From positions 1-38,626 of the forward strand of contig CABZSR010000014.1 in NCBI GenBank assembly GCA_902528415.1: a stretch of 38,626 nucleotides of DNA. The letters run 5' to 3'. The stretch comes from an uncultured SAR116 cluster alpha proteobacterium (GTDB lineage: Bacteria > Pseudomonadota > Alphaproteobacteria > Puniceispirillales > Marisalimonadaceae). Of the stretch, positions 7,452-38,179 are shown piece by piece. The notes under the pieces were generated by a model. It ran no database searches. It was not told the DNA's origin and saw only the letters and a program-made list of their open reading frames with translations. Positions within the stretch are counted from its first letter, which is position 1. Every line of letters begins with the position of its first letter. A program made the position numbers and the translations under genes.

Positions 7452-7528
7452 GGCCTCGTAGCTCATCTGGATAGAGCGCAAGATTCCTAATCTTGAGGTA
7501 ACAGGTTCGAGTCCTGTCGAGGTCGCCA
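7452..7528 (+). tRNA. tRNA-Arg, anticodon CCT
   Basis: Complete cloverleaf of 77 bases including an encoded CCA. The acceptor arm GGCCTCG pairs with CGAGGTC at 7518-7524 (one G-T). The D arm is GCTC/GAGC, the anticodon stem CAAGA/TCTTG around loop TTCCTAA giving anticodon CCT (reads AGG), and the T arm ACAGG/CCTGT with loop TTCGAGT. The discriminator base is G7525. It stands alone between the SDR gene and the AT-rich accessory block; tRNA-Arg genes are common phage or island integration points. Confidence 0.97.
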
Positions 7529-7862: not shown

Positions 7863-9077
7863 TTGTTTGAATTTTTAAAAAAACTATCAAATAAAATCAC
7901 TTTCAATCAAAATTTTTATATTTTTGTCTTAATATCATTTGTGTTTATTTCAATATATCCAAATTATTTATATCCTGACTTTGATAATATAAACAGAAAT
8001 TTTAAAAATGTTTTTGAAGCATTTTTTTCTGGGTCAACAGTAGTAAAATCTAAAACATTTGGAGGAAGTTCAGAGGAACATAAATTATTATTAGATCAAT
8101 TGTTTTTAACCCCACAACTTAAAATTATTCAGTTTATCGACTTTTTTTTTGATATTTCAATAATTAGACATGCTGACCTAAATGACGTTTTTGTTAAATT
8201 TTATTTTTTTATAATAACAGTCTTATTGATATTATGCCTTAACTTAGCAGATGATATATTTAGTGATAATAAAAAAGACAATTATGAAAAAAAATTAATC
8301 TTTATCTTATCACTTTTATTTCCAGGGGTTTTAATGTCAATTACTGCACCTTCTTCAGAGGCTGTGTTTTCTGTATTTTCTATTTTTTTATTTACAAGAA
8401 TTTTCGAACCAAAATTGAACATTAAACAAGGTATTTTTTATTTTAGCATTTTCACGTACTGTTATTTTCTAGACAGTGGAAATTGGTTTTTAATATCAAT
8501 ATTTATATTTAATATTATAGTTTCATATATATTAATTAAATTTAGTAAAACACTTTTTTACATTATTTTTATTATAACTATTTTATTTATATTTTTGTTC
8601 GTAAATGAATTAATTTATTATTTGGTTGACATCACAGAAAGTCATAAAATAAAGAGAATAATTGGAGATATACAAAATACTTCAATTCAAAACAGAGAAA
8701 CTTTTGATATAATTAAGAGATATTTATTTTTGATATTAACTTTATTTGCTATTCTAACTTCAACAAAAAAATTTGTTTTTACATCATTAATTTTTATTAC
8801 TTATTTAATTTATACAATCTTTATAAACTACTACAGAAAAAGAGTAACTATTTCAAATCATATCAATGATTACGAGTTAATTGTTTTATTAAATCTAATT
8901 TTTTTGCCGTTTGTAATTGTTTATGTACTACCACTACATGCATATGGTAAATATTATATTTTTTTAATCCCAATTATTTTTAAAATTATTTTGTTTTTTA
9001 TAAGTATTGAAAAGCTTTTAAAGTTAAACACTATTTTTACCATTTTCTTTATAATAAATATAATAGTCATTACATAA
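7863..9077 (+). CDS. Polytopic membrane protein of unknown function, first gene of the VTC/CotH block
   Basis: 404 residues with roughly 11-12 hydrophobic membrane segments (about 18-35, 113-130, 144-160, 165-180, 190-205, 207-226, 230-256, 284-300, 305-322, 338-358, 363-382 and 388-404). A soluble loop at 36-110 is probably extracytoplasmic. I do not recognise a family. The overall architecture resembles Wzy/EpsG-like polymerases or GT-C-type transferases, but no diagnostic motif is visible. The start is TTG, supported by AAGGT about 7 bases upstream; no nearby ATG fits. Composition is extremely AT-rich (6 G/C in the 60 bases at 8521-8580), unlike the glycolytic genes. An 85-bp gap separates it from the DUF4956 gene. 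Confidence 0.7.
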   Translation: MFEFLKKLSNKITFNQNFYIFVLISFVFISIYPNYLYPDFDNINRNFKNVFEAFFSGSTVVKSKTFGGSSEEHKLLLDQLFLTPQLKIIQFIDFFFDISIIRHADLNDVFVKFYFFIITVLLILCLNLADDIFSDNKKDNYEKKLIFILSLLFPGVLMSITAPSSEAVFSVFSIFLFTRIFEPKLNIKQGIFYFSIFTYCYFLDSGNWFLISIFIFNIIVSYILIKFSKTLFYIIFIITILFIFLFVNELIYYLVDITESHKIKRIIGDIQNTSIQNRETFDIIKRYLFLILTLFAILTSTKKFVFTSLIFITYLIYTIFINYYRKRVTISNHINDYELIVLLNLIFLPFVIVYVLPLHAYGKYYIFLIPIIFKIILFFISIEKLLKLNTIFTIFFIINIIVIT

Positions 9078-9162
9078 CTCAAATTAACATTAATATTAAA
9101 AACACTAAGAATTAGCAAGTATCACTCAGTTAATTTGACTTTTATTACATTTTTATTACATT

Positions 9163-9840
9163 ATGAAAATGGATGATCTTTTATTAAAATTACAATCTCA
9201 AGATAGCGAGATTTCTTTAACATTAACAATAATCAATTTTGCCTTTTGTATATTTTTTTCTCTAATTCTAAGAGAAATTTTTTTAAGGTTTTCAAATATA
9301 TCATTTAATAGAACTTCAATAGCAAGAAATTTAGTTACTCTTTCGTGCATTGTTTTTGTTGTCATTGTTATTGTTAAAAATTCTTTGGCGCTATCATTAG
9401 GACTTGTCGGTGCTTTATCTATAGTAAGATTTAGAACCCCAATAAAAGAACCTACTGAATTAATATACTTGTTTTTTAGCATTGCTATTGGATTAGGTTT
9501 TGGTTCGTCTCAAACATTAATAACTTCAATTTTATCACTCTTATTGTTTCTTTATATATATGTAACAAGAGAAAAAGATTTGGCCGCATCGCAACTTGAT
9601 GATTATAATCTTGTTATTGAGTGGAATGATAAAAATTTAGATTTGAAACAAATTAATGATACTGTAAAAAAACATAATGAAATAGTGTCTATTGAAAAAC
9701 TTTCTTTTGAGAAAAATAAAATTGTGGCAATGTATTCTTTAAATTTCTCGTCAGAGTTGAATCTTTTTGAGCTAATTTCAGAGGTTAAAAAATTAAAGAT
9801 TGAAAGTGTAGACTATTTTAAAATTCAAAATATACATTAA
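9163..9840 (+). CDS. DUF4956 family membrane protein
   Basis: 225 residues. Three to four membrane segments lie between about residues 18 and 135, followed by a soluble C-terminal domain (about 140-225). The family signature is in the middle: LGLVGALSIVRFRTPIKEP, then a glycine-rich helix GLGFGSS. DUF4956 proteins are frequently encoded next to VTC-domain and CotH-domain proteins, as here, but their function is not established; a transport or scaffold role for the neighbouring polymerase is an inference. ATG at 9163 is used; an ATG two codons later is equally possible. It is 9 bp from the VTC gene. Confidence 0.88.
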   Translation: MKMDDLLLKLQSQDSEISLTLTIINFAFCIFFSLILREIFLRFSNISFNRTSIARNLVTLSCIVFVVIVIVKNSLALSLGLVGALSIVRFRTPIKEPTELIYLFFSIAIGLGFGSSQTLITSILSLLLFLYIYVTREKDLAASQLDDYNLVIEWNDKNLDLKQINDTVKKHNEIVSIEKLSFEKNKIVAMYSLNFSSELNLFELISEVKKLKIESVDYFKIQNIH

Positions 9841-9849
9841 ATATTAACC

Positions 9850-10482
9850 ATGAGAATTGAGAGAAAATTTGTTTTTGAAAATCAGTTTCAATCAGAAAAT
9901 ATTTTTCAAAATATTCTTAAGAATTTCGTCATAAAAAAAATATTTGAATCTAGGCAAATAAATTCAGTTTATCTTGATACTAAAAAGTTAGATTATCTAC
10001 ATGATAATTTAAGCGGAATTAAAAACAGAATAAAATCAAGGATTAGATTTTATTCCGACAACAATACTCAAATTATTTATGAAGAAAAGATTAAAAAAAA
10101 TGAGATTGGTTTTAAAAAAAAAACTGTACTTAAAACTGATGGAAAAATAAATTTAAATTTTGAAAATTCAATAAAAATATTTAAAGAAAGCAATTTTTTT
10201 TTAAAATCCAAGTATTTTCTGAAAGAAACTTTGTTTGTTCAATATAATAGAAAATATTTTATAGATGTATTTGGAAATTTTATAACTTATGATACAGACA
10301 TATGTTTCTCCGATGTAGAATATTTTAAAAAACCTATAATGTATAAAAAAGCAGTAATTGAATATAAAATTTTTGAAAATAATTTTAAAAATAACTTATT
10401 TTATAACTTTAAACAGAGATATTCAAGACATTCAAAATATGTTGCCGGCATGGCAATATTAAATAAAACTTCATATGTCTGA
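9850..10482 (+). CDS. VTC-domain (polyphosphate polymerase-like) protein
   Basis: 210 residues, the whole protein being one VTC tunnel domain of the triphosphate tunnel metalloenzyme fold. Characteristic charged residues are present in order: Glu4/Lys6 in MRIERKF, a basic strand with Arg60, Arg64 and Arg66, EEKIKK at 78-83 (Glu79, Lys80), Arg134 in QYNRKYF, DTDI near 148-151, Glu171/Lys173 in VIEYKI, and the closing RYSRHSKYVAG at 190-200. Yeast Vtc4 uses this fold to build polyphosphate from ATP. Bacterial VTC proteins beside CotH and DUF4956 are presumed cytoplasmic polymerases, but direct proof is scarce. There is no membrane segment, so DUF4956 could be its membrane partner. Confidence 0.88.
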   Translation: MRIERKFVFENQFQSENIFQNILKNFVIKKIFESRQINSVYLDTKKLDYLHDNLSGIKNRIKSRIRFYSDNNTQIIYEEKIKKNEIGFKKKTVLKTDGKINLNFENSIKIFKESNFFLKSKYFLKETLFVQYNRKYFIDVFGNFITYDTDICFSDVEYFKKPIMYKKAVIEYKIFENNFKNNLFYNFKQRYSRHSKYVAGMAILNKTSYV

Positions 10483-10487
10483 GGCTT

Positions 10488-13154
10488 ATGTATTTAAAAA
10501 GAAAAAAATTTAGATTTAGTATCTTAGTGATCTTTTTAATATTTATCTCTGCTTTCTTTGTTGTTTTGAATACAAATAAAAAACTCATTCAAAAAGAATT
10601 ATTTTATTTTGTAGATATATTAGATTCAAAACTTTACAAAATTACTACATTTGCAGAGTTATTCAATCATAATAATATATATTTGATGGGAGAAACATAT
10701 TCAGAAATTATCAAAACAGCTTTCATAAACTTTCCATCTTTTTTGAATAAAATTTCTCTTTATTACAAATCAAATGAATATGAATTTAAAAAAATTAATC
10801 TTAATTTTAAATTTAATAATTATAAGAAACTTTTAGAAGATAGACTGGAATCTGTAAAATCAAATATAGGAGTTTCAGATAGAAACGAGGTTAAAGGATC
10901 TCTAAAATATAATGATAAAGTTTATAAAATTAATAGTTCTATTAAAGGTAAACTTATTGACCATTTCAGATCTCCATCAAGATTTAGCCTAAAAATAAAC
11001 ATGAAAGATAATCAATACTTATTTGGTATGAGAGAGTTTTCTATTCAAAAACCTGAATCAAGAGCATCCCCATATGAGCAAATATTTTTAGAAATAGTGA
11101 AAAATTTAGGATTTGTGGTTCCAAAACATATGTTTTTACAAGTTAATTTTAATGACAAAAATTGGGGTGTAATGAACATAGAAGAAAATCCGTCCAAAGA
11201 AACCTTAGAATTACAACAGTTTACTGGAGAACTAATATTTCAATTTGGTAACGAAAAAAACAAATTTTTAGAAAAACAGTTTTCTTCTAATTCACCCATG
11301 GATAGCATCATTAATTTAGAAACTTTTCCAATAAGATTCCTAGATTCTAAAAGAGTACATAAAAATAAATTTTTTATAAATAATTTAGTAAATCATAAAT
11401 TTAATAAAAAAATATATCAGTATTTTGATCATGAAAAAATGTGTAGTCTTGCTCTTTTATCTATTATTTGGGGAAGTTCGCATGTACTTGAATTAAATAA
11501 TACCCAATATGCTTATAATATTTATTCTAGAAAAATATCGCCTATTCCTCAGGATGTAGCTGCCACTCCCAGAAAAATTAACAATAAAAAAGATATCGCA
11601 CAAATAACTAGATTATATCTGAATTCTTGTTCAAAAATAAAAAATAAAAATATTCTTTTAAAAAAAATTGAATTAGCAGTAAAAAAATCTCAGGCTAAGA
11701 TAAAATATTTACAACAACAATTTCCCGTAAATAATAAAATTGATGTAAATGTTTTATATCAAAACATAAATTTTTTGTTACAAAATATGGATGATTCTCT
11801 AATTTTGATAGACGACAGGTTTCCAATTTCAAAAATTCAATACGATAAAAACATACTAGATAGACTAGATATATTTAATATAAAATTGTTAAGAAAACAT
11901 AATTTTTTTTATGTTTACATAGGTAATCAAATTAAATCAGATGTTCATATTAATAATTTGACTTTAACCAACAGTAAACGAAATAATCTTATAAACAAAA
12001 AAATCAAAGTAAACAAAAAGATCAGAGGAATATATTTTAAAAACTTTAAAGAATATTTAGATAAAAAAAAGGATATCAAATTAACTATTCCAATTGATTC
12101 TTCCATGGTTAACTCACAAATAAATCAAATTCTTTTTGATGTAATTATAGATAAAATAAATTTTAAGTTTGAGGTTACAGAAAAATTTCCACAATTTAAT
12201 TACGACAAAAATAATTACGAAAATCATAGTTTTGATTTTTTAAAAAAAATTGATGATAATACCGTTTTATGGAAGAAAGGAAATTGGAATGTAACCAAAC
12301 CAATTAACATAAGGGATGATTTGATAATTCAAGAAGGCACAAAGATTAACTTTACAAATCAGTCATATTTATATTTGGAAGGTATACTTAAAATATTAGG
12401 TAATAAAAATGATAAGGTCATAATAAGTTCAAGTGATAGCTCTTGGAAAGGTTTTCATATAAATTCAAACGATAAAAAAAATCCCTCTATCATCTATAAT
12501 GCAGAGTTTTCAGAATTGAATTCATATGAAGATGATGCATTTAAAATGAATGGAGGAATTAACTTTTATAATTCTGATGTGAAAATAAATAACTTGATTA
12601 TTTCCAATGTTTATTCTGAAGACGCAATTAATTTAATTAACACTTCTTTTAGTATAGAAAACTTACATGTTGATAATACTGGCTCTGACGCTTTGGATTC
12701 AGACTTTTCAAAAGGTGTTATAAAGAATTCATCTTTTAAAAACATTACTGGAGACGCCATAGATACGTCAGGCTCAAACGTTATTATAAAAGATACTTTA
12801 TTTTATGATATTTTAGACAAAGCAATTTCTGCGGGTGAAAAAAGCAATATTAAATTATCAAATTTGTCATTTAATAAATGCTTAATTTGCATAGTTGCTA
12901 AAGATGATAGTAAAATAGATGTATATAATTTTGTCGTAAAAAATTACTCACTTTATTTCGCAGCAGCATATAAAAAGAAAAACTTTTATAAAAATGGGGG
13001 AGAATTAAACTTTCTAAATTCCTCACAAGATGATTTAAACTTTCTTAAAATTGTCAGAGATAATCAATCTAAAATATTTTTGAAAAATGTGAAATTAGAT
13101 ACAGAAATCAATGATAATTTCAAATATTTTTATGATTATAGAGTTTTTAATTAA
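10488..13154 (+). CDS. Membrane-anchored CotH-kinase-like protein with C-terminal beta-helix
   Basis: 888 residues. The N-terminus is basic, followed by one membrane segment (about 10-28), so the remainder should be extracytoplasmic. Residues about 145-360 resemble the CotH atypical kinase fold: an IKGK strand (152-155), GMREFSIQKP (180-189), YEQIFLEIV (196-204), GVMNIEE (227-233), then SHVLELNN (331-338) and PIPQD with Asp356 as the candidate metal-binding Asp. CotH proteins commonly have a D-x-D there; here the following residues are V-A-A. Residues about 605-820 form a right-handed beta-helix-like repeat region (DAINL, DALDS, DAIDT, KAIS in register). Bacillus CotH phosphorylates a spore-coat protein; the substrate here is unknown. 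It starts 5 bases after the VTC stop. The 3' end is 19 bp from the convergent pyrophosphatase gene. Confidence 0.8.
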   Translation: MYLKRKKFRFSILVIFLIFISAFFVVLNTNKKLIQKELFYFVDILDSKLYKITTFAELFNHNNIYLMGETYSEIIKTAFINFPSFLNKISLYYKSNEYEFKKINLNFKFNNYKKLLEDRLESVKSNIGVSDRNEVKGSLKYNDKVYKINSSIKGKLIDHFRSPSRFSLKINMKDNQYLFGMREFSIQKPESRASPYEQIFLEIVKNLGFVVPKHMFLQVNFNDKNWGVMNIEENPSKETLELQQFTGELIFQFGNEKNKFLEKQFSSNSPMDSIINLETFPIRFLDSKRVHKNKFFINNLVNHKFNKKIYQYFDHEKMCSLALLSIIWGSSHVLELNNTQYAYNIYSRKISPIPQDVAATPRKINNKKDIAQITRLYLNSCSKIKNKNILLKKIELAVKKSQAKIKYLQQQFPVNNKIDVNVLYQNINFLLQNMDDSLILIDDRFPISKIQYDKNILDRLDIFNIKLLRKHNFFYVYIGNQIKSDVHINNLTLTNSKRNNLINKKIKVNKKIRGIYFKNFKEYLDKKKDIKLTIPIDSSMVNSQINQILFDVIIDKINFKFEVTEKFPQFNYDKNNYENHSFDFLKKIDDNTVLWKKGNWNVTKPINIRDDLIIQEGTKINFTNQSYLYLEGILKILGNKNDKVIISSSDSSWKGFHINSNDKKNPSIIYNAEFSELNSYEDDAFKMNGGINFYNSDVKINNLIISNVYSEDAINLINTSFSIENLHVDNTGSDALDSDFSKGVIKNSSFKNITGDAIDTSGSNVIIKDTLFYDILDKAISAGEKSNIKLSNLSFNKCLICIVAKDDSKIDVYNFVVKNYSLYFAAAYKKKNFYKNGGELNFLNSSQDDLNFLKIVRDNQSKIFLKNVKLDTEINDNFKYFYDYRVFN

Positions 13155-13173: not shown

Positions 13174-13884
13174 CTATTTTTTTAGTTGATGATTTTGGAA
13201 TGATCGTATTGCAGAACTTAAAATAAACATTGCATTTTTTTTATTATCATACCCATTAGTCTTAATAACACCTATGCCTTTATAGTTTTCAAACCAAATT
13301 TCAATAATCGTTAATACTCCAGGAAAATTAGATATTAGGTTATTTATATCTTTAACTTTGTATAGTGGAGAACTAGGATGAACGATTAAAATTTTATCGT
13401 CTTTTTCTCCATCATCTATTAATTTTAATACTCCGACGACTTTTCCACTTTTGATTTCGCCTCTTTTAAATGGGGGGCCAATAAGAATAGCATCTAATGG
13501 ATCGCCATCTCCTCCATCATTAATAGAAAGAAGTGTTCTAGGTATTGCTCCATAGTTGAAAGGATACCCAAGATATTGAACTTTGCGAGGTTTTCCATTT
13601 TTAAATCCCCAAAGAATATCTCCAGAAATATTTGATATTTCCCATTTTTCTAGAGTTCCAGAAGGAATTTCTACTACTACATTTACAGTACCATTTTCAT
13701 TAATGGGCACAAAATCATTTATAAAGTGTTTTTTAGAAACCAATTTATATTGAGTTTCAGATATGATATCACTATTCAAATTATCCTTGGCATAACTTGG
13801 TATAGACATTAAATAGATGCCGCATATTGTTAAGTACAAAATATCTTTTACAATATAATTCATATTTATTTTTTTACAAAACAT
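13174..13884 (-). CDS. ppa: Inorganic pyrophosphatase, family I, predicted exported
   Basis: Hydrolyses pyrophosphate to phosphate. The soluble family I core lies at about 60-236. Metal ligands match E. coli Ppa: Asp126, Asp128 and Asp131 in DGDPLDA, then Asp157, Asp162 and Lys164 in DDGEKDDK. YPFNYG is at 107-112 and Lys80 fits the substrate Lys. Unlike cytoplasmic Ppa it has about 32 extra N-terminal residues: a basic start, a hydrophobic run (about 15-28) and a cleavage-like SYA-K. It is therefore probably periplasmic, or possibly membrane-tethered. A second in-frame ATG at 13863 also leaves a signal peptide. The start lies 3 bases after the HAD gene stop, suggesting coupling. It faces the VTC/CotH operon tail to tail. 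Confidence 0.9.
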   Translation of the reverse strand: MFCKKINMNYIVKDILYLTICGIYLMSIPSYAKDNLNSDIISETQYKLVSKKHFINDFVPINENGTVNVVVEIPSGTLEKWEISNISGDILWGFKNGKPRKVQYLGYPFNYGAIPRTLLSINDGGDGDPLDAILIGPPFKRGEIKSGKVVGVLKLIDDGEKDDKILIVHPSSPLYKVKDINNLISNFPGVLTIIEIWFENYKGIGVIKTNGYDNKKNAMFILSSAIRSFQNHQLKK

Positions 13885-13887
13885 CTG

Positions 13888-14211
13888 TCAATTAATATCT
13901 TCAAAATACTTTTCACTATTAATTGCTTTGTCATCAATCCATAAATCATAGTGTGGTTTATCTCCAACTCTAAGTGATGTATAACTACAGCCCCATTGTT
14001 TTAATTGACTTTTGGTTAATTCTAGATGATCAATTCCACTTACAGAACCTCTTGCAGTCCAATAATGTATTTCATTACCTTGTTCAAAAAGTTTATTAAT
14101 TATCTTTATACGTTTTTGAATTGGTGTAGCTTGTTCATAATCTCTGCTACCGTCTTTAAAATGATTTTGAGTGCAGATCGTACCGTCAATATCAACTATA
14201 TAAACTTTCAT
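13888..14211 (-). CDS. Small HAD-superfamily phosphatase (EcbF/BcbF-like)
   Basis: 107 residues with no cap domain. HAD motif I is VDIDGT (Asp7, Asp9), motif II Thr52 in YWTARGS, motif III Lys85 in VGDKPHYD and motif IV Asp93-Asp94 in WIDDKA. This minimal layout resembles the small HAD phosphatases found in capsule-polysaccharide loci, so a sugar-phosphate or nucleotide-sugar precursor is a reasonable but unproven substrate. It is the first gene of a two-gene unit with the exported pyrophosphatase. Its 5' end is divergent from the dehalogenase gene across about 150 bp. Confidence 0.8.
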   Translation of the reverse strand: MKVYIVDIDGTICTQNHFKDGSRDYEQATPIQKRIKIINKLFEQGNEIHYWTARGSVSGIDHLELTKSQLKQWGCSYTSLRVGDKPHYDLWIDDKAINSEKYFEDIN

Positions 14212-31268: not shown

Positions 31269-32189
31269 TTAAAACTTTATACCTATAGATTTTAAAGATA
31301 CCTTTAATTGTTTTTTATCGTCATTATCTAAAATTATTGATGATCTCATTGTATCTAAGGGAATTTTTTTTAAAATTCTTAAGCAATATTTAATTCTTGC
31401 TGTTGCAAAATTAGGTGGATGTTTCCCATAGATGCTATAAGCTAACGTTAATAGTTTTTTGTCTAATTCTCGAGCTTTAATAAAATTTTTGCTTTCAATA
31501 TTTTCAATTAATTCAACGATTTTTTCTGGAACTATTGCTGCCAGACTTACTTGTGTTCCGTCACTACCATATTTAAAACAAGGATAAATATGCTCGTCTC
31601 CAGAAGCCATAACCAAAAACTGTTCATTAATTCCTTTTAAAAATTCGTAATTTTCAACATAACTGGAAAAATCCCAACTTCCTTCTTTAATGCCTATAAC
31701 ATTTTTTAAATTGACTAATTTATTTAGAGTTTCTTTTTTGTAGGAGAGATAACCGGAGTTGATACTTGACTGATATAAAAATATTGGTCCCTGTATGTAA
31801 TCAGATATAATTCTATGATGTTCGTAAATCATTTCTGAACTTATACCTTGAGACCATGAAAAGGGAGGAAAAACTAAGATTGCATTAGCACCGTTTTCAA
31901 ACATTTCTTTTGCGACACGAGCAGCTTCTTGTGGATCCTCAAAATTAACACCTGAAATTATTAAAGAACTATTTTCAACACTATCTTTTACAATTTTTAA
32001 AACTTGTATTTGTTCATGAGCACTTAGTGTAAAATTTTCGCCAGCATGCCCATTCACCAACAAACCTCTTATCCCTTTTGTGTTAGATATTTCCTTGATA
32101 TGTCGAACCAGGTTTTTTGTATCTATAGATTTATCAGTTTTGAGAGGCACTATATTAGCAGCATATATTCCTTTAAAACTTCTATTCAT
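31269..32189 (-). CDS. DapA/NanA-family class I lyase, possibly pyrroline-4-hydroxy-2-carboxylate deaminase
   Basis: 306-residue TIM barrel. The Schiff-base Lys168 lies in VIGIKEGSWD and Tyr139 in IFLYQSS. The DHDPS substrate motif GTTGE is replaced by GHAGEN at 47-52, so this is not dihydrodipicolinate synthase itself. It is the last gene of a leftward four-gene operon, directly abutting (0 bp) a DadA-like FAD oxidoreductase. In D-hydroxyproline catabolism (LhpC/HypD) a DapA-family enzyme deaminates the pyrroline produced by the dehydrogenase, which fits the neighbours. Other catabolic lyase substrates are possible. Confidence 0.8.
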   Translation of the reverse strand: MNRSFKGIYAANIVPLKTDKSIDTKNLVRHIKEISNTKGIRGLLVNGHAGENFTLSAHEQIQVLKIVKDSVENSSLIISGVNFEDPQEAARVAKEMFENGANAILVFPPFSWSQGISSEMIYEHHRIISDYIQGPIFLYQSSINSGYLSYKKETLNKLVNLKNVIGIKEGSWDFSSYVENYEFLKGINEQFLVMASGDEHIYPCFKYGSDGTQVSLAAIVPEKIVELIENIESKNFIKARELDKKLLTLAYSIYGKHPPNFATARIKYCLRILKKIPLDTMRSSIILDNDDKKQLKVSLKSIGIKF

Positions 32190-33287
32190 TTATAAAAACC
32201 TCTTTATATCAAATAAACTTAAATCTACATCTTCTCCCAAAATTTTTTTTGCTAATAATTTTCCCATATATGGACCACTTGTATAGCCGGAATGAATAGA
32301 CCCTATGATATATGCATTATTAAAATCTGGTAATTCACCAATAATAGGCATTGCATCATCCGTTTCTGCTTCAAGTCCTAACCAAACCCTAGCTACCCTA
32401 GAACGCTTTAATTTAGGAATGGCGTGACATGCCAATCTCATATTTCCTATTAAATTTTCAGACTTTGTTGCAGTAAAATTTTCTTCAGCACTACCTATTC
32501 CTGGCCAACCACCGCCAATAAGAACGGTTCCATTTTTAAATTGTTTAAGAGACAGCTTTCCATTTGCAACAGTTATAACAGTATCCATAACTTTAGGCAT
32601 TCTTTCGCTTACAATTAGTTGTTGTGGAAGGCATTTTATATTTACTTTTATATTTAATAATTCAAGAGCTTTATTTAGATGAACACCCGTAGCTAATATT
32701 AATTTTTTTGAAATTAATTTTTCACCAGTTTTAGATAAAATGGTATAATTATTTTCTGAAAATTCAATTTCTGTAACTTCAAAATTATTTAAAATTTTTA
32801 CTTTGTGTTCTTTCAATGCTTTTGAATAAGCATAGCCTGTTTGGTTAGCGCTGACATAACCATCCATTGCACAAAATGCAGCACACTTTATGTTTTTATT
32901 TATATTTGGATCAATTCTTAAAGCTTCTTTTTTAGAAATTATTTCTATGTCAGCTCCATATTCTTTTCTAATTTTAGACCTTTCATTTAAAAGTTTTTCT
33001 TCGTCTTCTGTAAAGGCTAGGCAAAGACCATTTCTCTTTTCTACATCTATATCTTTGGACAACCATTTATTTGTACTCATCCATAATTCCCATCCTTTTT
33101 TTGCATATGGTATTAACTGTGCTCTAGTCATATGCATTGTGAGAGTTCCGGCATTTACTCCCGAAGCCCCTTTACAAATAGAATGTTTGTCTAAGAGAGT
33201 TACTTTTAACCCGTTTTTAGCTAATTCTAAAGCAGTAGAAGCACCATTTATACCTCCACCTATTATTGCAATATCAGTTTTACTCAT
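32190..33287 (-). CDS. DadA/HcnC-like FAD amino-acid dehydrogenase, beta subunit
   Basis: 365 residues of the glycine-oxidase/D-amino-acid-dehydrogenase (DAO) fold. The FAD motif IIGGGINGASTALELAKNG is at 8-26, followed by VTLLDK; the C-terminal part contains GLEAETDDAMPIIGELP and a GSIHSGYTSGPYMGKLLA motif near the end. Such proteins oxidise amino acids and pass electrons to a partner rather than oxygen when encoded with HcnA/B-like subunits, as here (2 bp from the alpha subunit gene). The likely reaction is oxidation of D-4-hydroxyproline (LhpB-like) or another secondary or D-amino acid. Gene order alone cannot separate these from opine oxidase. Confidence 0.85.
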   Translation of the reverse strand: MSKTDIAIIGGGINGASTALELAKNGLKVTLLDKHSICKGASGVNAGTLTMHMTRAQLIPYAKKGWELWMSTNKWLSKDIDVEKRNGLCLAFTEDEEKLLNERSKIRKEYGADIEIISKKEALRIDPNINKNIKCAAFCAMDGYVSANQTGYAYSKALKEHKVKILNNFEVTEIEFSENNYTILSKTGEKLISKKLILATGVHLNKALELLNIKVNIKCLPQQLIVSERMPKVMDTVITVANGKLSLKQFKNGTVLIGGGWPGIGSAEENFTATKSENLIGNMRLACHAIPKLKRSRVARVWLGLEAETDDAMPIIGELPDFNNAYIIGSIHSGYTSGPYMGKLLAKKILGEDVDLSLFDIKRFL

Positions 33288-33289
33288 AA

Positions 33290-34711
33290 TTATAAAGGAG
33301 CCGCTTCTATTTTTGTAATTTCATTATAATCAAACTCACCAATAGCTCTGTCTAACGGTACAGGTCTTATTGGAGATCTTCCAGTTAAGTAGCCAATATC
33401 CTCAACGTTACATTTTAATTCTTCTGCAACAACCTTCGCAACAGAGTATTGACAAGTTCTTCCTTGACAAGGACCCATTCCAAACCTTGTCCAAGATTTA
33501 AGTTGATTTAAATCCTTAGCCCCATTGTCAATGGCCTCTAAAATATCTTTTTTGGTAATATCCTCGCATCTACATAAAATCGTCTCATCTTTTATATTAT
33601 TTAATAGTTGGGGAGGGGTTGAATTTAATTTTGCAATTGCCTTTGCAAACAATTCATATTTGTATAACCTTTTAAAAATTTTTTTGGTTTTAATTTTGAA
33701 TTCTTTTTCTTTAATTATTTTTTCGTCATATAACAAAGCCAAGCTTGCGATTAGTCCTTTGTCTTTTGCTGCTATAGCTCCAGATATACCAGCACCGTCT
33801 CCAGTAACATAAAGACCGTCAAGTGATGACCTTAAATAATCGTCAATTTCTGCTATCCAACCACCTTTGGATTCATTATAAATGTGTTTTGCTCCTAGTA
33901 ATCTTGTTATGTCTGTACTAGGGATTAGTCCATGGCCAACAGCAAGTGTTCCGGTAACTAAACTTTCTTGTTTGCCAGTATTAATATTTTGAATTTTAAC
34001 TTTTATATATTCATTATGTTGAGTTGCTTTAGCAATCATACTATTCGAATATATTGGTACTTTATTAAATAAAATCTTTGTCAGCCATTTTATACCGTCT
34101 TTAAAGTTTTTTGGATTTGAAATTAATGATACTGTGGATTTAATCCAATCAAACTTACTGCTTGTGTCAATTATTGCCTCAACTTCACCCCCGAATTCAA
34201 TGATGTAGTATGCGACTAGCAATAACAAAGGACCGTTACCTGCTAAAATGATTTTTTGACTAGGAATAAAATGATGAGACTTAAGCATGACTGTACATGC
34301 AGCTAACCCAATAATTCCTGGGTTAGTCCACCCATCAAATGGAATTATTTTTTCATAAGTTCCAGTTGCAACAATTATATTTTTCGCATGCCACTGAATT
34401 GTGGAAATATCATTAAACGCATCAACCTTAAAGCCTGGGGATACCTGCCAAACAGTATGATTATAAGCCGTAAAAATATTATTTTTTTTAATTTCCCTAG
34501 ATAAATATTCCTGTGTTTTATTTTCTTGAAGTTTTTTTTCTGAGATATGTTTATATGATTTTGGAGGAGCTCTATAAATTTGGCCACCTGTATTGTGGCT
34601 AATGTCGACGATTAGAACTTGAAGGCCTTTTTGGGCACAATTAATAGCTGCACTTACCCCACTTGGACCAGCACCAATTACAATAACGTCATATTTAATT
34701 TTATAGTTCAT
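33290..34711 (-). CDS. FAD/NAD(P) oxidoreductase with BFD-like [2Fe-2S] domain, alpha subunit (HcnB/LhpE-like)
   Basis: 473 residues. The N-terminal FAD motif VIGAGPSGVSAAINCAQKG is at 11-29, a second Rossmann motif ILAGNGPLLLL lies near 155, and the FAD-contact TGDGAG is around 310. The C-terminal BFD-like domain has Cys380-x-Cys382 and Cys415-x4-Cys420 in GPCQGRTC, expected to hold a [2Fe-2S] cluster. This is the alpha subunit type of hydrogen cyanide synthase, opine oxidase and D-hydroxyproline dehydrogenase. It overlaps the upstream ferredoxin-like subunit gene by 11 bp and is 2 bp from the beta subunit gene, so the three should form one complex. Confidence 0.87.
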   Translation of the reverse strand: MNYKIKYDVIVIGAGPSGVSAAINCAQKGLQVLIVDISHNTGGQIYRAPPKSYKHISEKKLQENKTQEYLSREIKKNNIFTAYNHTVWQVSPGFKVDAFNDISTIQWHAKNIIVATGTYEKIIPFDGWTNPGIIGLAACTVMLKSHHFIPSQKIILAGNGPLLLLVAYYIIEFGGEVEAIIDTSSKFDWIKSTVSLISNPKNFKDGIKWLTKILFNKVPIYSNSMIAKATQHNEYIKVKIQNINTGKQESLVTGTLAVGHGLIPSTDITRLLGAKHIYNESKGGWIAEIDDYLRSSLDGLYVTGDGAGISGAIAAKDKGLIASLALLYDEKIIKEKEFKIKTKKIFKRLYKYELFAKAIAKLNSTPPQLLNNIKDETILCRCEDITKKDILEAIDNGAKDLNQLKSWTRFGMGPCQGRTCQYSVAKVVAEELKCNVEDIGYLTGRSPIRPVPLDRAIGEFDYNEITKIEAAPL

Positions 34712-34991
34712 CTAAATCACCAATTTTAATATTCATACCCTCTTTGATAAAAACATTGCATGAAGTTACTTTCATTTCATCGATTAAAACCACACATTCT
34801 TGACAGGATCCCATTAAACAAAACATTCCCCTACCGTCCTTATTTTTAGGCGAGAGCCTCAAGTTTTTAATATTATTTATATATAAAACTAAAGCTAGAC
34901 ACTCACCTTCGTAAGCCTCTAAACTTTCGTTGTTAACAAAAATTTTAATTTTTTTTGATCTTTTGAAATAATTTGAAACTCTTAGGTTCAC
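34701..34991 (-). CDS. Small [2Fe-2S] subunit (HcnA/LhpF-like)
   Basis: 96 residues, ferredoxin-like Fer2 domain. Cys58, Cys63, Cys66 and Cys78 show the C-x4-C-x2-C-x11-C spacing in FCLMGSCQEC and TSC. It is the first gene of the leftward operon and the expected gamma subunit of the oxidoreductase. The start is GTG at 34991 and weakly supported (no clear Shine-Dalgarno); about 12 basic residues precede the domain. Confidence 0.85.
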   Translation of the reverse strand: MNLRVSNYFKRSKKIKIFVNNESLEAYEGECLALVLYINNIKNLRLSPKNKDGRGMFCLMGSCQECVVLIDEMKVTSCNVFIKEGMNIKIGDLDEL

Positions 34992-35240
34992 TGGATACTT
35001 TCTAATTTAGTTAGGTAAGATTGAGTTAAGATGCTTAATTTACGAAATTTAATATTTAAAGTTAATTCAACTAATAACAAACCATAATACCTTTTTGATG
35101 ATTAATTAAGCACTTCTCGTCTTTATCTTCTTTTTTTAATAAATTAACACTTTGAAAACTTAAACACAAAAATTTTACTATCATTTTGATTCAAATTAAT
35201 TCAAAATTATTTTTTAAATGTAAAAAAAGGAGTAAAAATA
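34992..35240. promoter_or_regulatory. Divergent control region between oxidase operon and ABC transporter operon
   Basis: 249 bp, very AT-rich, with no open frame of note. A 10-bp-period direct repeat ATTCAAA occurs at 35189-35195 and 35199-35205 near the transporter side, and AAGGAG at 35226-35231 is the ribosome site of the binding protein gene. It should hold promoters for both operons, but I could not pick confident boxes. Confidence 0.4.
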
Positions 35241-36047
35241 ATGATGATGAAATTATTTAAATCAGTATTTACTCTTCTGATTTTGCTTTGTTTTTCAGTC
35301 AGTGCTCAAGCGAGATCTTTAGATGAAATATTAAAATCAGGAGTGCTTAAAGGTGGTGTTAATCCTGGATTACCACCTCTTGCCAAATATAATGACAAAA
35401 ACGATCTTGTAGGATTTGATGCTGACATAATGGCAAAATTAGCTGAGATGTTGGGTGTAAAGTTAGAGCTAGTCAAAGTTGGTTCTCCAGATAGAATACC
35501 ATTCGTTGCAACTGGAAAAATTGACATCGTAATGGGAGCCCTTACTAGAAACTATAAAAGACAAAAAATAGTTGACTATACTGTACCAGTTCACACAGAG
35601 GTTTTTGGAGCTTTAACTACTAGTAAAAAGCCTTTTGCAGCTGTGATGGATATGAATAGGGATGATGTAAAACTTGCTCAAGTCAGAGGCTCAATGCCGG
35701 CAGGTTGGGCTAAGAAAAATCTAACAAAGGCTAAAATTACGTTATTTGATAATTATCCAGATGCAATGAGATCAATCGCGCAAGGAAGGGCTGATGCTAT
35801 TGTAGATGTTGTAGATTTTCTTGGTGAGCATATGAATAAATACAAAGATGTCAAATGGCAAGTAGTAGATAAAGCTATAGATACTTGGTACTGTGGTATT
35901 GGGGTTAAAAAGGGAAACGCTTCTCTTCAACAATGGCTAAATGTTGCTTTATATACTCTTCATAGAGCTGATTTTGTTGATAAAACTTGGGAAAAATGGT
36001 TTGGTATTCGTCAAATTCATAGTGTACAACCACAGCCTTATTTCTAA
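35241..36047 (+). CDS. Periplasmic amino-acid binding protein (family 3)
   Basis: 268 residues. The signal peptide covers about residues 1-24 ending AQA before RS. The mature part follows the family 3 pattern: LKGGVNPGLPPLAKYN, LVGFDADIMAKLAEMLGVKLELV, IDIVMGALTRNYKRQKIVDYT, and the paired-lobe VRGSMPAGWAKKN with ITLFDNYPDAMRSIAQGRADA. ATG has an ideal AAGGAG 9 bases upstream; three Met codons in a row make the exact start uncertain by two residues. First gene of a binding protein-permease-permease-ATPase operon, divergent from the amino-acid oxidase operon, so the ligand is probably that oxidase's substrate or precursor. Confidence 0.93.
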   Translation: MMMKLFKSVFTLLILLCFSVSAQARSLDEILKSGVLKGGVNPGLPPLAKYNDKNDLVGFDADIMAKLAEMLGVKLELVKVGSPDRIPFVATGKIDIVMGALTRNYKRQKIVDYTVPVHTEVFGALTTSKKPFAAVMDMNRDDVKLAQVRGSMPAGWAKKNLTKAKITLFDNYPDAMRSIAQGRADAIVDVVDFLGEHMNKYKDVKWQVVDKAIDTWYCGIGVKKGNASLQQWLNVALYTLHRADFVDKTWEKWFGIRQIHSVQPQPYF

Positions 36048-36060
36048 TTTAAATCTAAAC

Positions 36061-36097
36061 ATTTTACCCTCTATTTTAAGAATTTAGAGGGTAAAAT
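36061..36097 (+). promoter_or_regulatory. Perfect 13-bp hairpin sequestering the permease ribosome site
   Basis: ATTTTACCCTCTA (36061-36073) and TAGAGGGTAAAAT (36085-36097) are perfect complements around an 11-base loop. The right arm contains GAGGG (36087-36091), the Shine-Dalgarno of the permease whose ATG is the next base. It lies between the binding protein stop and the permease start with no T tract, so translation control or mRNA end protection is more likely than termination. Confidence 0.75.
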
Positions 36098-36775
36098 ATG
36101 GGTTATACTTTAGTCTATACTCAAGTTCTGGAGTTCCTTCCTTATCTTATAAAGGGTGCTTGGATAAGTTTACAAATAGCTATTTTAGCTTTTTCTGGTG
36201 GTATGTTTTTTGGATTAATTTTAGCTACCATAAGAACTTTCGGTAATAACATATCCAATAAAATTGTAATTTGTTATGTTACATTCTTCACTAACACTCC
36301 TCAACTAGTTCAAATCTATTTTTTGTTTTTTGCCTTGCCTGAATTTGGTATTTTGTTGTCGCCTTATATAGCAGTTTTACTTGGTATGACTTTGAATGCT
36401 GCAGCATATTTATGTGAAATACAAAGAGCTGGTTTTTTGTCAATTAGACAAAATGAATTAGATGCTGCTAAAACATTAAATTTTAGTCTAATGCAACAAG
36501 TAAAATATGTTATTTTGCCTCACATTATGAAGGTTCTCTTTCCTCCATTGTCAAATCATTACATTATAATGACATTGGGGACATCGATGGCAGCTATTTT
36601 TGGTGTCGAAGAGTTGACTGGGAGAGCTTTTAACATTAATTCAGAAACTTTCAGATCTGTAGAAATCTTTTCAATAACTGCGCTCATCTATATTGTAATT
36701 ACTTTTATAGCTACTTTTTTATTAGCAGTTATAGGTAGATATTTTTTCAAAGCAAAAATTAGGATTATTCAATAA
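36098..36775 (+). CDS. Amino-acid ABC transporter permease (HisM/GlnP family), first
   Basis: 225 residues with about five membrane helices. The family features are visible: FTNTPQLVQIYFLFFALP (about 69-86) and the cytoplasmic EAA-like loop QNELDAAKTLNFSLMQQVKYVILP (about 123-146, ELDAAKTL core) that contacts the ATPase. Its GAGGG ribosome site is buried in the 36061-36097 hairpin, so initiation is probably weaker than for the binding protein. Stop and next start share one base (TAATG). Confidence 0.93.
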   Translation: MGYTLVYTQVLEFLPYLIKGAWISLQIAILAFSGGMFFGLILATIRTFGNNISNKIVICYVTFFTNTPQLVQIYFLFFALPEFGILLSPYIAVLLGMTLNAAAYLCEIQRAGFLSIRQNELDAAKTLNFSLMQQVKYVILPHIMKVLFPPLSNHYIIMTLGTSMAAIFGVEELTGRAFNINSETFRSVEIFSITALIYIVITFIATFLLAVIGRYFFKAKIRIIQ

Positions 36776-37458
36776 TGGAAAGATTAATTGAAGAAATACC
36801 TAATTTTTTTACTATTTGGAATGTTATATTCTTAGCTAAAGCAATGGGCGTTACTTTTTTACTTACTGCCATTGGATGTATAGTCGGTTTTAGTGTTGGT
36901 GGTTTATTGGCTATTTTTAGAAAAACAAAGACAATTTTTTTGCTACCAATAAGAATTTTAATTGTTATATATACAGAAATTTTTAGAAGAATACCTTTTT
37001 TAGTATCTTTATTATTATTTTTTTATGTTTTTCAAATAATAAAAATATCAGATGATTTATTTCTCATTGCCACAATCACAGTCTGTGTCATTGCAACAGC
37101 ATATATAGGTGAAATAATTAGAAGTGGTATAGAATCAATAAATCAAACACAATGGGACGCCGCTACTGCAATGAATTTTACATATTACCAAACACTCAAG
37201 GAAATAATATTTCCACAAGCGTGGAAAGTTATACTTCCTCCAGCCTTTGGTTTTTTTATAATGTTTATTAAAGACACTGCTCTAGCATCACAAATTGGTG
37301 TTATGGAACTTACTTTTGCTGCTAAAGTACTAAATAATAAAGGTTTCTCTCCCTTGTTATCATTTGGAACAATTTTGATTTTATATTTTATTCTTTCATT
37401 TCCTTTAGATAGATTTGGAAAATACATGGAGAAAAAACTTGCCTCAAATAGAAATTAA
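36775..37458 (+). CDS. Amino-acid ABC transporter permease (HisQ/GlnP family), second
   Basis: 227 residues with about five membrane helices. It has EIFRRIPFLVSLLLFFY in the N-terminal half and the coupling loop with the core QWDAATAMNFTYYQTLKEI, followed by FPQAWKVILPP. It overlaps the first permease by one base and runs 20 bases into the ATPase gene, indicating translational coupling. Two distinct permeases suggest a heterodimeric membrane core. Confidence 0.93.
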   Translation: MERLIEEIPNFFTIWNVIFLAKAMGVTFLLTAIGCIVGFSVGGLLAIFRKTKTIFLLPIRILIVIYTEIFRRIPFLVSLLLFFYVFQIIKISDDLFLIATITVCVIATAYIGEIIRSGIESINQTQWDAATAMNFTYYQTLKEIIFPQAWKVILPPAFGFFIMFIKDTALASQIGVMELTFAAKVLNNKGFSPLLSFGTILILYFILSFPLDRFGKYMEKKLASNRN

Positions 37459-38179
37459 ATCAGCTAACGCCTTTTACGATAAATTACATGTATTGAAAAA
37501 TATTGAACTTAGTGTTGATAGAGGTGAAATTGTTAGTCTAATAGGTCCATCTGGATCTGGTAAAAGTAGTCTTTTAAAGATGTTAGTTGGATTATTAATT
37601 CCAAAATCTGGTGATGTATATTTGAACAAAACATTGGTTAACTTCAATAATCAATCTGATTTAAGAGTAATTCGAGAACAAATAGCAATTGTTTTCCAAC
37701 AATATAATTTATTTCAAAATATGAATGTCTTAAAAAATGTTTCTATTGCTCCAACTAAAATTCAAAAAAGAAATCCCAAAGAAGTAAATGATCAAGCTTT
37801 ATTCTTGTTAGAAAAAGTTGGTTTAAAGGATAAGTTAGAATCTTATCCAGATGAACTTTCTGGAGGGCAACAACAACGTGTTGCTATAGCTAGAGCATTA
37901 TGTTTGAATCCAGAAATTTTACTTTTAGACGAAATAACTTCAGCATTAGACCCTGAGTTAGTTAAAGAAGTTTTAGATTCAATAAGGTTACTAGCAGCTG
38001 AAGGTATGACAATGCTTATAGTTTCTCATGAAATGAGTTTTGTTAGGGAAGTTTCGAGTAGAGTGGTTTTTATGGATGACGGGTCTATTATAGAGGTAAA
38101 TAATCCGAAAAATATCTTTGAAAGTCCAAAAGAAAAAAGAACATTGGATTTTGTAGGTAAAATCCTTAAAGATAAATGA
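37439..38179 (+). CDS. Amino-acid ABC transporter ATPase (GlnQ/HisP family)
   Basis: 246 residues. Walker A GPSGSGKS is at 36-43, Q-loop FQQYNLF, signature LSGGQQQR, Walker B LLLDEI and switch His in SHEMSF. The chosen start is TTG at 37439: GGAG (37428-37431) lies 7 bases upstream and the protein then begins with PQIEIKSANAFY, the normal length for this family. The alternative TTG at 37415 adds eight residues without a ribosome site. It begins inside permease 2. The stop TGA overlaps the next ATG (ATGA). Confidence 0.95.
   Translation: MPQIEIKSANAFYDKLHVLKNIELSVDRGEIVSLIGPSGSGKSSLLKMLVGLLIPKSGDVYLNKTLVNFNNQSDLRVIREQIAIVFQQYNLFQNMNVLKNVSIAPTKIQKRNPKEVNDQALFLLEKVGLKDKLESYPDELSGGQQQRVAIARALCLNPEILLLDEITSALDPELVKEVLDSIRLLAAEGMTMLIVSHEMSFVREVSSRVVFMDDGSIIEVNNPKNIFESPKEKRTLDFVGKILKDK

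Follow-up and report, generated by a model that had tools for sequence, protein, structure and literature searches.

A DUF4956-VTC-CotH gene trio in a SAR116 alpha-proteobacterium, a possible cell-envelope glycan module at a variable tRNA site

The stretch of DNA analyzed here is a contig of 38,626 nucleotides (CABZSR010000014.1, assembly GCA_902528415.1), hereafter the window, from an uncultured alpha-proteobacterium of the SAR116 cluster. It carries an operon of four genes that encode a polytopic membrane protein of 404 amino acids (aa), a DUF4956 membrane protein, a VTC-domain protein of the polyphosphate polymerase type and an anchored protein that combines a CotH kinase fold with a beta-helix. 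The last three are a real unit, a DUF4956-VTC-CotH trio that forms the widespread core of the operon and recurs in bacteria and archaea. We tentatively read the operon as an accessory cell-envelope glycan module that is built on this trio and would use phosphate chemistry outside the cytoplasm.

All four open reading frames (ORFs) are on the plus strand, separated by gaps of 85, 9 and 5 bp. The 404-aa protein (7863-9077, TTG start) belongs to a lineage-specific family, and its hydrophobic segments mark it as polytopic; it is followed by the DUF4956 gene (9163-9840, 225 aa), the VTC gene (9850-10482, 210 aa) and the CotH-fold gene (10488-13154, 888 aa). An earlier prediction made for this DNA (the original prediction) gave the same four genes, with the same order, coordinates and gaps of 5-85 bp, and our ORF check bears it out. 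The G+C content of the operon genes is 0.20-0.25, compared with 0.29-0.36 in the genes on both sides (SDR 0.36, inorganic pyrophosphatase 0.29, HAD-like 0.30, abhydrolase 0.30). A promoter scan predicted 76 sites against a mean of 60.6 (standard deviation 7.7) in shuffled sequence and a terminator scan predicted three, all on the minus strand; neither defines the operon transcript.

The trio was surveyed in named loci comprising the best 80 of at least 573 DUF4956 relatives, which is not a random sample. It was counted as complete where matches to profiles built here lay on one strand with gaps of at most 300 bp. Complete trios occur in 45 of these best 80 named loci, and several of the 35 incomplete ones end at contig edges. 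Their hosts include Alphaproteobacteria, Bacteroidota, Planctomycetota, Chloroflexota, Methanosarcina and Woesearchaeota; the commonest gene order is DUF4956-CotH-VTC (28 of 45), and the order seen in the window is found in four. The association of the three families, as the original prediction had it, is therefore borne out. Nearer to the window, and counting its own genome, 6 of the 58 family genomes and 8 of the 136 order genomes have a VTC gene. Nine trio loci were examined in the order, the one in the window among them; in L031, which starts at a contig edge, DUF4956 is outside the view. One genome (G018) carries two different trios (L012 and L013), and a Kordiimonadaceae locus (L038) has, next to one another, two full trios and a portion of a third.

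The trio is already in print in the open-licence literature, in the available portions of two papers on the Pel polysaccharide and of a report on a Clostridium perfringens locus. The Gram-positive Pel cluster of streptococci, clostridia and bifidobacteria is described as carrying cotH, PPP and DUF4956, which are SIR_1592-1594 in Streptococcus intermedius (PMC7112168, PMC12345266). As in the window, the same three families are adjacent there and tied to a surface polysaccharide; unlike in the window, the CotH protein of those clusters has FN3 rather than a beta-helix, and here His stands for the catalytic Asp and PelG is not found. The NELoc-2 locus of C. perfringens (VTC, a 'tubulin' GTPase and CotH) likewise places VTC beside a predicted membrane protein of about 225 aa and CotH, but it holds two VTC copies and is reported as a pathogenicity locus (PMC2879425, as far as its available text goes). 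A PelG search gave no match in any of the 45 complete-trio genomes (completeness not given) or in the genome of the window, G000 (1.72 Mb, 58 contigs, 73% complete); among 14 control genomes it matched one, Thermotoga maritima. No pel-type gene was recognized by eye among the window ORFs, and membership of the window trio in a Pel locus was ruled out on the absence of PelG from G000 and the 45 trio genomes. The accessible part of PMC12345266 states that the three genes in such an arrangement were not found outside the Pel locus in its analyses. Our survey disagrees with this confinement, the scope of that paper's search lying outside the part we have seen.

The 888-aa protein has a single hydrophobic segment, at its N-terminus (residues 6-31), which suggests that it is anchored and most likely faces outward. 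It has no match to Pfam CotH (PF08757) up to E = 1, and Pfam and NCBIfam give it a chance-level match at most. A profile of this protein and eight trio relatives, in which two of the nine sequences match Pfam CotH, matches Spore coat protein H 5jd9 (E 3.5e-6). An AlphaFold2 model from 44 sequences (mean predicted local distance difference test score, pLDDT, 76.8; predicted template modeling score 0.73) matches 5jda in Foldseek (E 7.6e-13). The CotH kinase-fold domain so located spans residues ~96-440 (10773-11807, plus strand). The positions of G154, E233, N338 and D356 are kept as in the CotH kinases 5jd9 and 5jda; unlike these, the window protein lacks a Pfam CotH match, has an added beta-helix and carries His332 (codon 11481-11483, plus strand) at the place of the catalytic Asp, as judged by alignment with 5jd9 and with relatives. 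In that alignment His332 pairs with the Asp of FDG, and D356, 23 residues farther on, with the first Asp of WDYD. The same spacing separates what we take to be the catalytic D228 and the metal-binding D251 of Bacillus subtilis CotH, a pair reportedly due to Nguyen et al. 2016. The metal-binding Asp is thus kept in the window, D356 taking the place of D251. Position 165, which is Lys in 48 of 74 CotH relatives, is Arg in the window protein. Because His332 replaces the catalytic Asp, phosphotransfer by this protein is doubtful. The original prediction of an anchored CotH-like kinase with a beta-helix accordingly holds for the anchor (segment), the CotH fold (profile) and the helix (model), but not for a canonical kinase site or a Pfam CotH match.

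A right-handed beta-helix occupies residues ~585-830 (12240-12977, plus strand), as indicated by the model, by Foldseek and by a near-invariant acidic ladder. The ladder residues are D712, D734/D737/D739, D756/D759, D777/K778/S781/E784 and K805/D806/S808. They recur about every 22 positions (712, 734, 756, 777), as stacked rungs would, and we infer from this periodicity that they may form one acidic face of the helix. Weaker Foldseek matches of the helix part are to P22 tailspike (2.9e-4), GH87, PL3 pectate lyase and AlgG (E 3e-4 to 2e-2); the conserved D/K/E ladder stands alongside weak fold matches to polysaccharide hydrolases and lyases, with no known catalytic set recognized in it. The window protein has the complete 12/12 beta-helix signature together with His332.

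Judged by sequence, the CotH proteins fall into two classes, one with Asp and one with His and a beta-helix. Of the 74 CotH relatives with 400 aa or more, 50 have His at position 332, 14 have Asp and 10 have another residue or a gap. The beta-helix signature is found in 43 of the 50 His-type proteins; the seven scored as helix-less may be misaligned or short. Conversely, the 52 helix-bearing proteins have His at this position in 43, the remaining nine showing E (2), D (2), W, S, T, A or a gap, and the 22 relatives without the signature have Asp in 12 and His in seven. Proteins entered the helix-bearing set by having eight or more of 12 signature residues, which in part builds in the conservation of those 12. 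D712, N715, S761, S786 and S808 were left out of the selection, and two of these, D712 and S808, are fixed in 52/52. Kinase-site positions are kept in most of the same 52 proteins (E233 in 48, N338 in 39, D356 in 41, His332 in 43). On a kinase-domain tree of 73 rows (CotH row L043 left out, support by SH-aLRT only, long branches flagged), His needs eight changes compared with a shuffled mean of 19.8, and His and Asp alone need three; one starred branch unites 12 Asp rows, none of which has the helix signature. We found no description of the His-type, beta-helix class in the open-licence literature, subscription papers and preprints being outside the search.

The VTC protein scores 53.4 bits against PF09359 (curated cut-off 23), and its family profile matches yeast Vtc4 3g3q (E 5.8e-13). 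Seven Vtc4 residues, K200, R264, R266, K281, R361, E426 and K458 (numbering counted along chain 8i6v_E), correspond to K6, R64, R66, K80, R134, E171 and K196 of the window protein, and each of these columns is kept in 74 or 75 of 75 VTC proteins. Presumably all of them, and Vtc4 R373 as well, have roles in the polyphosphate tunnel. At the place of the R373-type arginine the 75-VTC alignment puts Phe144 (codon 10279-10281, plus strand). The claim of a complete VTC domain with its basic tunnel residues therefore stands for the domain and for seven residues, but not for this arginine. His-type trios whose VTC has the arginine include those of L068 and of Dokdonia pacifica (L060). The likeness to yeast Vtc4 lies in the tunnel domain and the seven matching residues; besides the Phe, the window protein differs in that a hydrophobic-segment scan finds no membrane segment of its own and its 210 aa leave no room for SPX. 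A PP_kinase gene of the PPK1 type is found elsewhere in the same genome, so the VTC protein need not serve storage polyphosphate.

The DUF4956 protein (PF16316, 53.1 bits, curated cut-off 30.6) is modeled with a pLDDT of 88.5 as five long helices and a C-terminal beta-alpha-beta-beta-alpha-beta domain of the ACT/ferredoxin-like type. The best PDB match of the C-terminal part is the MgtC C-terminal domain 2lqj (E 8.9e-4), and the protein matches Pfam MgtC weakly (E 0.029). The model agrees with the published reading of SIR_1592 of S. intermedius as MgtC plus ACT (PMC12345266, from its available part). DUF4956 resembles MgtC in its membrane helices and 2lqj-like C-terminal domain, but is a separate Pfam family with its own core, S-ALSLGLVGALS, invariant in 67 aligned members. 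Six DUF4956 ORFs (L048, L075, L082, L091, L096 and L104) are about twice as long (448-527 aa), possibly through a fused or duplicated membrane part; five of them adjoin Asp-type CotH proteins of 550-570 aa, none being seen in L082.

The surroundings of the trio were examined by scanning 140 of 147 flanking genes against Pfam. The commonest families are Metallophos (7), methyltransferases (6), Por_Secre_tail (6), GT2 (5), GT1 (4), KARI (4), Wzy_C (4), DegT (3) and Pyrophosphatase (2), KARI being a housekeeping neighbor in Pelagibacteraceae. Genes with the GNH[DE] metallophosphoesterase motif make up 13 of 159 within 700 bp of the trio compared with 4 of 498 farther away (odds ratio 11, p 6e-6, by motif count), and many of 16 phosphoesterases from a profile search start, by eye, with a hydrophobic or lipobox-like stretch. 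In L045 and L103 a pyrophosphatase homologue with a start that looks lipoprotein-like by eye comes immediately after VTC, and L060, the His-type trio locus of the culturable flavobacterium Dokdonia pacifica DSM 25597, has a homologue at a distance of 2.5 kb. In the window a family I inorganic pyrophosphatase (13174-13884, minus strand, PF00719 103.8 bits) with an N-terminus that looks signal-like by eye lies tail to tail with the operon. It is found in only two of 58 family genomes and was not found at the G024 locus, so it was rejected as a constant partner and kept as a neighbor. Another trio, in genome G012 of the same genus, has DegT, two glycosyltransferase, ManC-type, nucleotidyltransferase and GDP_Man_Dehyd/Epimerase genes at distances of up to about 10 kb. 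The themes of surface polymer and extracytoplasmic phosphate raised by the original prediction both find support in these glycan genes and phosphohydrolases.

It is otherwise with the first gene, which the original prediction took as part of a four-gene unit and a possible new variant. Neither Pfam nor NCBIfam gives a match for the 404-aa protein, and a PDB search of its family is also empty; searches with seven family members gave one weak match to YlaC (E 0.0027) and another to DUF2254 (E 0.4). Relatives occur in 5 of 58 family genomes, own included, and in 2 of 385 genomes of the class, namely the own genome and one borderline case (E 9.7e-4). Only two loci, the window and G024, were seen to have a 404-type gene next to the trio, and in G024 a HAD-like gene on the opposite strand, homologous to the 107-aa protein of the window (13888-14211, minus strand; HAD_PNKP 20.4 bits, below the cut-off of 27.6), separates the 404-type gene from DUF4956. 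The family profile finds no ORF in the other seven order-level trio loci or in the best 80 named loci. These occurrences make the 404-aa protein a plausible helper of this operon rather than a defining part. The other copies examined (L025, L026, L027, L028 and L030) lie near anmK-like and polysaccharide-type genes; ten neighbors from four of those loci and L012, checked against Pfam, include ABC-2/ABC, Glycos_transf_4, AnmK, NAGidase, ManC-type and nucleotidyltransferase families. We therefore rejected the four-gene unit as a new system, its first family not being met with the trio elsewhere and its paralogues sitting with polysaccharide genes. By eye these paralogues adjoin anmK-like genes and a PIG-L-like gene (AnmK and NAGidase are Pfam-confirmed in L025), and this recurring combination resembles amino-sugar recycling beside surface glycan genes.

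The operon is a swappable block in a variable site behind a tRNA-Arg(CCT) gene (7452-7528, plus strand, by ARAGORN), which marks the site. The site was surveyed in 17 of 27 relatives with a strong abhydrolase match, plus G012 and G024; L135, at a contig edge, was not counted. The frame of SDR, tRNA-Arg(CCT) and abhydrolase is present in 16/16 readable relatives, and the same tRNA-Arg is at the site in L009 and L029. Its contents in L119-L134 range from no ORF above 100 aa to rml-type genes (L129) and a NeuB-like gene (L130), as labeled by eye. Of 40 genomes of the genus, many of them incomplete, two (G000 and G024) have VTC at this site. In G012 about 4.9 kb are missing between window positions ~8060 and ~12971 with flanks of 90-93% identical DNA, leaving a 404 relic with stops, the 3' end of the CotH gene and a pyrophosphatase frame with two stops. 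An error in this metagenome-assembled genome could have produced the gap, but the stops argue for real decay. The G012 site (L029) also has two tandem tRNA-Arg(CCT) genes, at 8207-8283 and 8638-8714, which suggests past insertion or duplication. Two pattern scans of IMG/VR, which can miss distant relatives, found none of DUF4956 or of the 404-aa family, and a viral origin was set aside as lacking support. Farther along the window, at 31269-38179, a DapA-like gene, FAD oxidoreductases and an amino-acid-type ABC transporter look by eye like a catabolic cluster for amino acids or of the hydroxyproline type.

What the trio does can be approached from its recurrence, folds and residue patterns, its glycan and phosphohydrolase neighborhoods and the variability of the site, all of which were observed. 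A surface-glycan role for the trio is probable, given these neighborhoods and the S. intermedius genetics, the only direct genetic evidence we found: the available part of PMC12345266 reports that deletion of the DUF4956 gene gives more Pel, that deletion of the CotH gene gives less, and that both deletions cut aggregation by over half in one medium. It is a more tentative proposal that VTC supplies a phosphate chemistry on the far side of the membrane, and the following steps are suggestions as regards the VTC product, its export, polyphosphate as donor, the glycan substrate and every catalytic step. At the inner membrane face, VTC would make a short phosphate polymer or a related phosphoanhydride from ATP. 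The MgtC/ACT-like DUF4956 protein would couple this step to the membrane and sense or pass the product. Outside, the acidic groove of the beta-helix in the anchored CotH-fold protein may hold a surface polysaccharide on which phosphate chemistry takes place, and secreted phosphohydrolases, where they lie beside the trio, would clear or trim by-products. The 404-aa protein may be a lineage-specific membrane protein of polysaccharide clusters that was recruited to this copy.

Several observations weigh against this accessory glycan module. The catalytic Asp of CotH is replaced by His332, 73 of 75 VTC proteins have Arg at the R373-type position and the other two, those of the window and of L009 (the one relative with the same operon), have Phe, and the fold match of DUF4956 is to the C-terminal domain of MgtC, not to a channel. 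The commonest flanking families are partly non-glycan (KARI and Por_Secre_tail), and of the two family genomes with the window-type pyrophosphatase, the own genome and G012, the latter has the two stops in the frame. In S. intermedius none of the three genes is needed for Pel production and no change like those above is reported for deletion of the polymerase gene, according to the part of PMC12345266 at hand. The operon also looks dispensable: at the site, 16/16 readable relatives have no match to the 404, DUF4956, VTC or CotH proteins, and it appears to have been deleted in G012.

The loss of the catalytic Asp fits a different division of labor, in which the beta-helix would be the working enzyme, a hydrolase, lyase or epimerase on surface polysaccharide, the CotH half a phosphate-binding pseudokinase controller, and VTC/DUF4956 a phosphate- or energy-sensing input instead of a donor factory. 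We regard this as a serious possibility, if somewhat doubtful. D712 and S808 are fixed in 52/52 proteins while position 332 varies in 9/52, the helix resembles P22 tailspike, GH87, PL3 and AlgG, and an ACT/MgtC-like domain would suit a sensor. However, those fold matches are weak and come without a known catalytic set, E233, N338, D356 and His332 are mostly kept, more than a dead site needs, and a plain glycan enzyme leaves the phosphohydrolase enrichment unexplained. The scheme of the original prediction, in which cytoplasmic VTC makes polyphosphate, the 404-aa and DUF4956 proteins export it and CotH phosphorylates an outer protein or polymer with it, is unlikely. It agrees with the conserved trio, the mostly kept VTC tunnel, the anchored and most likely outward-facing CotH-fold protein and the phosphohydrolases beside the trio, but the R373-type Arg and the CotH catalytic Asp are both missing, and the 404-aa family is not found beside the trio elsewhere, its other copies lying with polysaccharide genes.

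It is quite improbable that the operon in this genome is a decaying accessory island of little or no function. The missing 4.9 kb, the relic and the interrupted pyrophosphatase frame in G012 speak for decay, as do the lost R373-type arginine and the presence of VTC at the site in 2/40 genus genomes, many of them incomplete. All four frames, however, are open in both the window and G024 although the proteins differ by 23-42%, with ratios of non-synonymous to synonymous substitution of 0.10-0.28 (synonymous sites near saturation), and the window protein keeps its 12/12 helix signature and His332. An extension of the accessory glycan module that we consider a long shot would make the beta-helix CotH proteins a His-type class of phosphotransferases that act outside the cytoplasm without ATP. 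His332 would take phosphate from a VTC-made chain and transfer it to a surface glycan bound by the beta-helix, and pyrophosphatases and phosphoesterases would drive the reaction. If true, a kinase system independent of ATP would serve surface glycans in many phyla and outside Pel loci.

With a trio that extends beyond Pel across bacteria and archaea, two CotH classes and phosphohydrolase neighbors, an unexplained gene set becomes a specific question: whether VTC-fed phosphate chemistry outside the cytoplasm modifies surface glycans, with a kinase fold that carries His for Asp. The supply of a phosphate donor to a kinase outside the cytoplasm thereby becomes a testable question as well.

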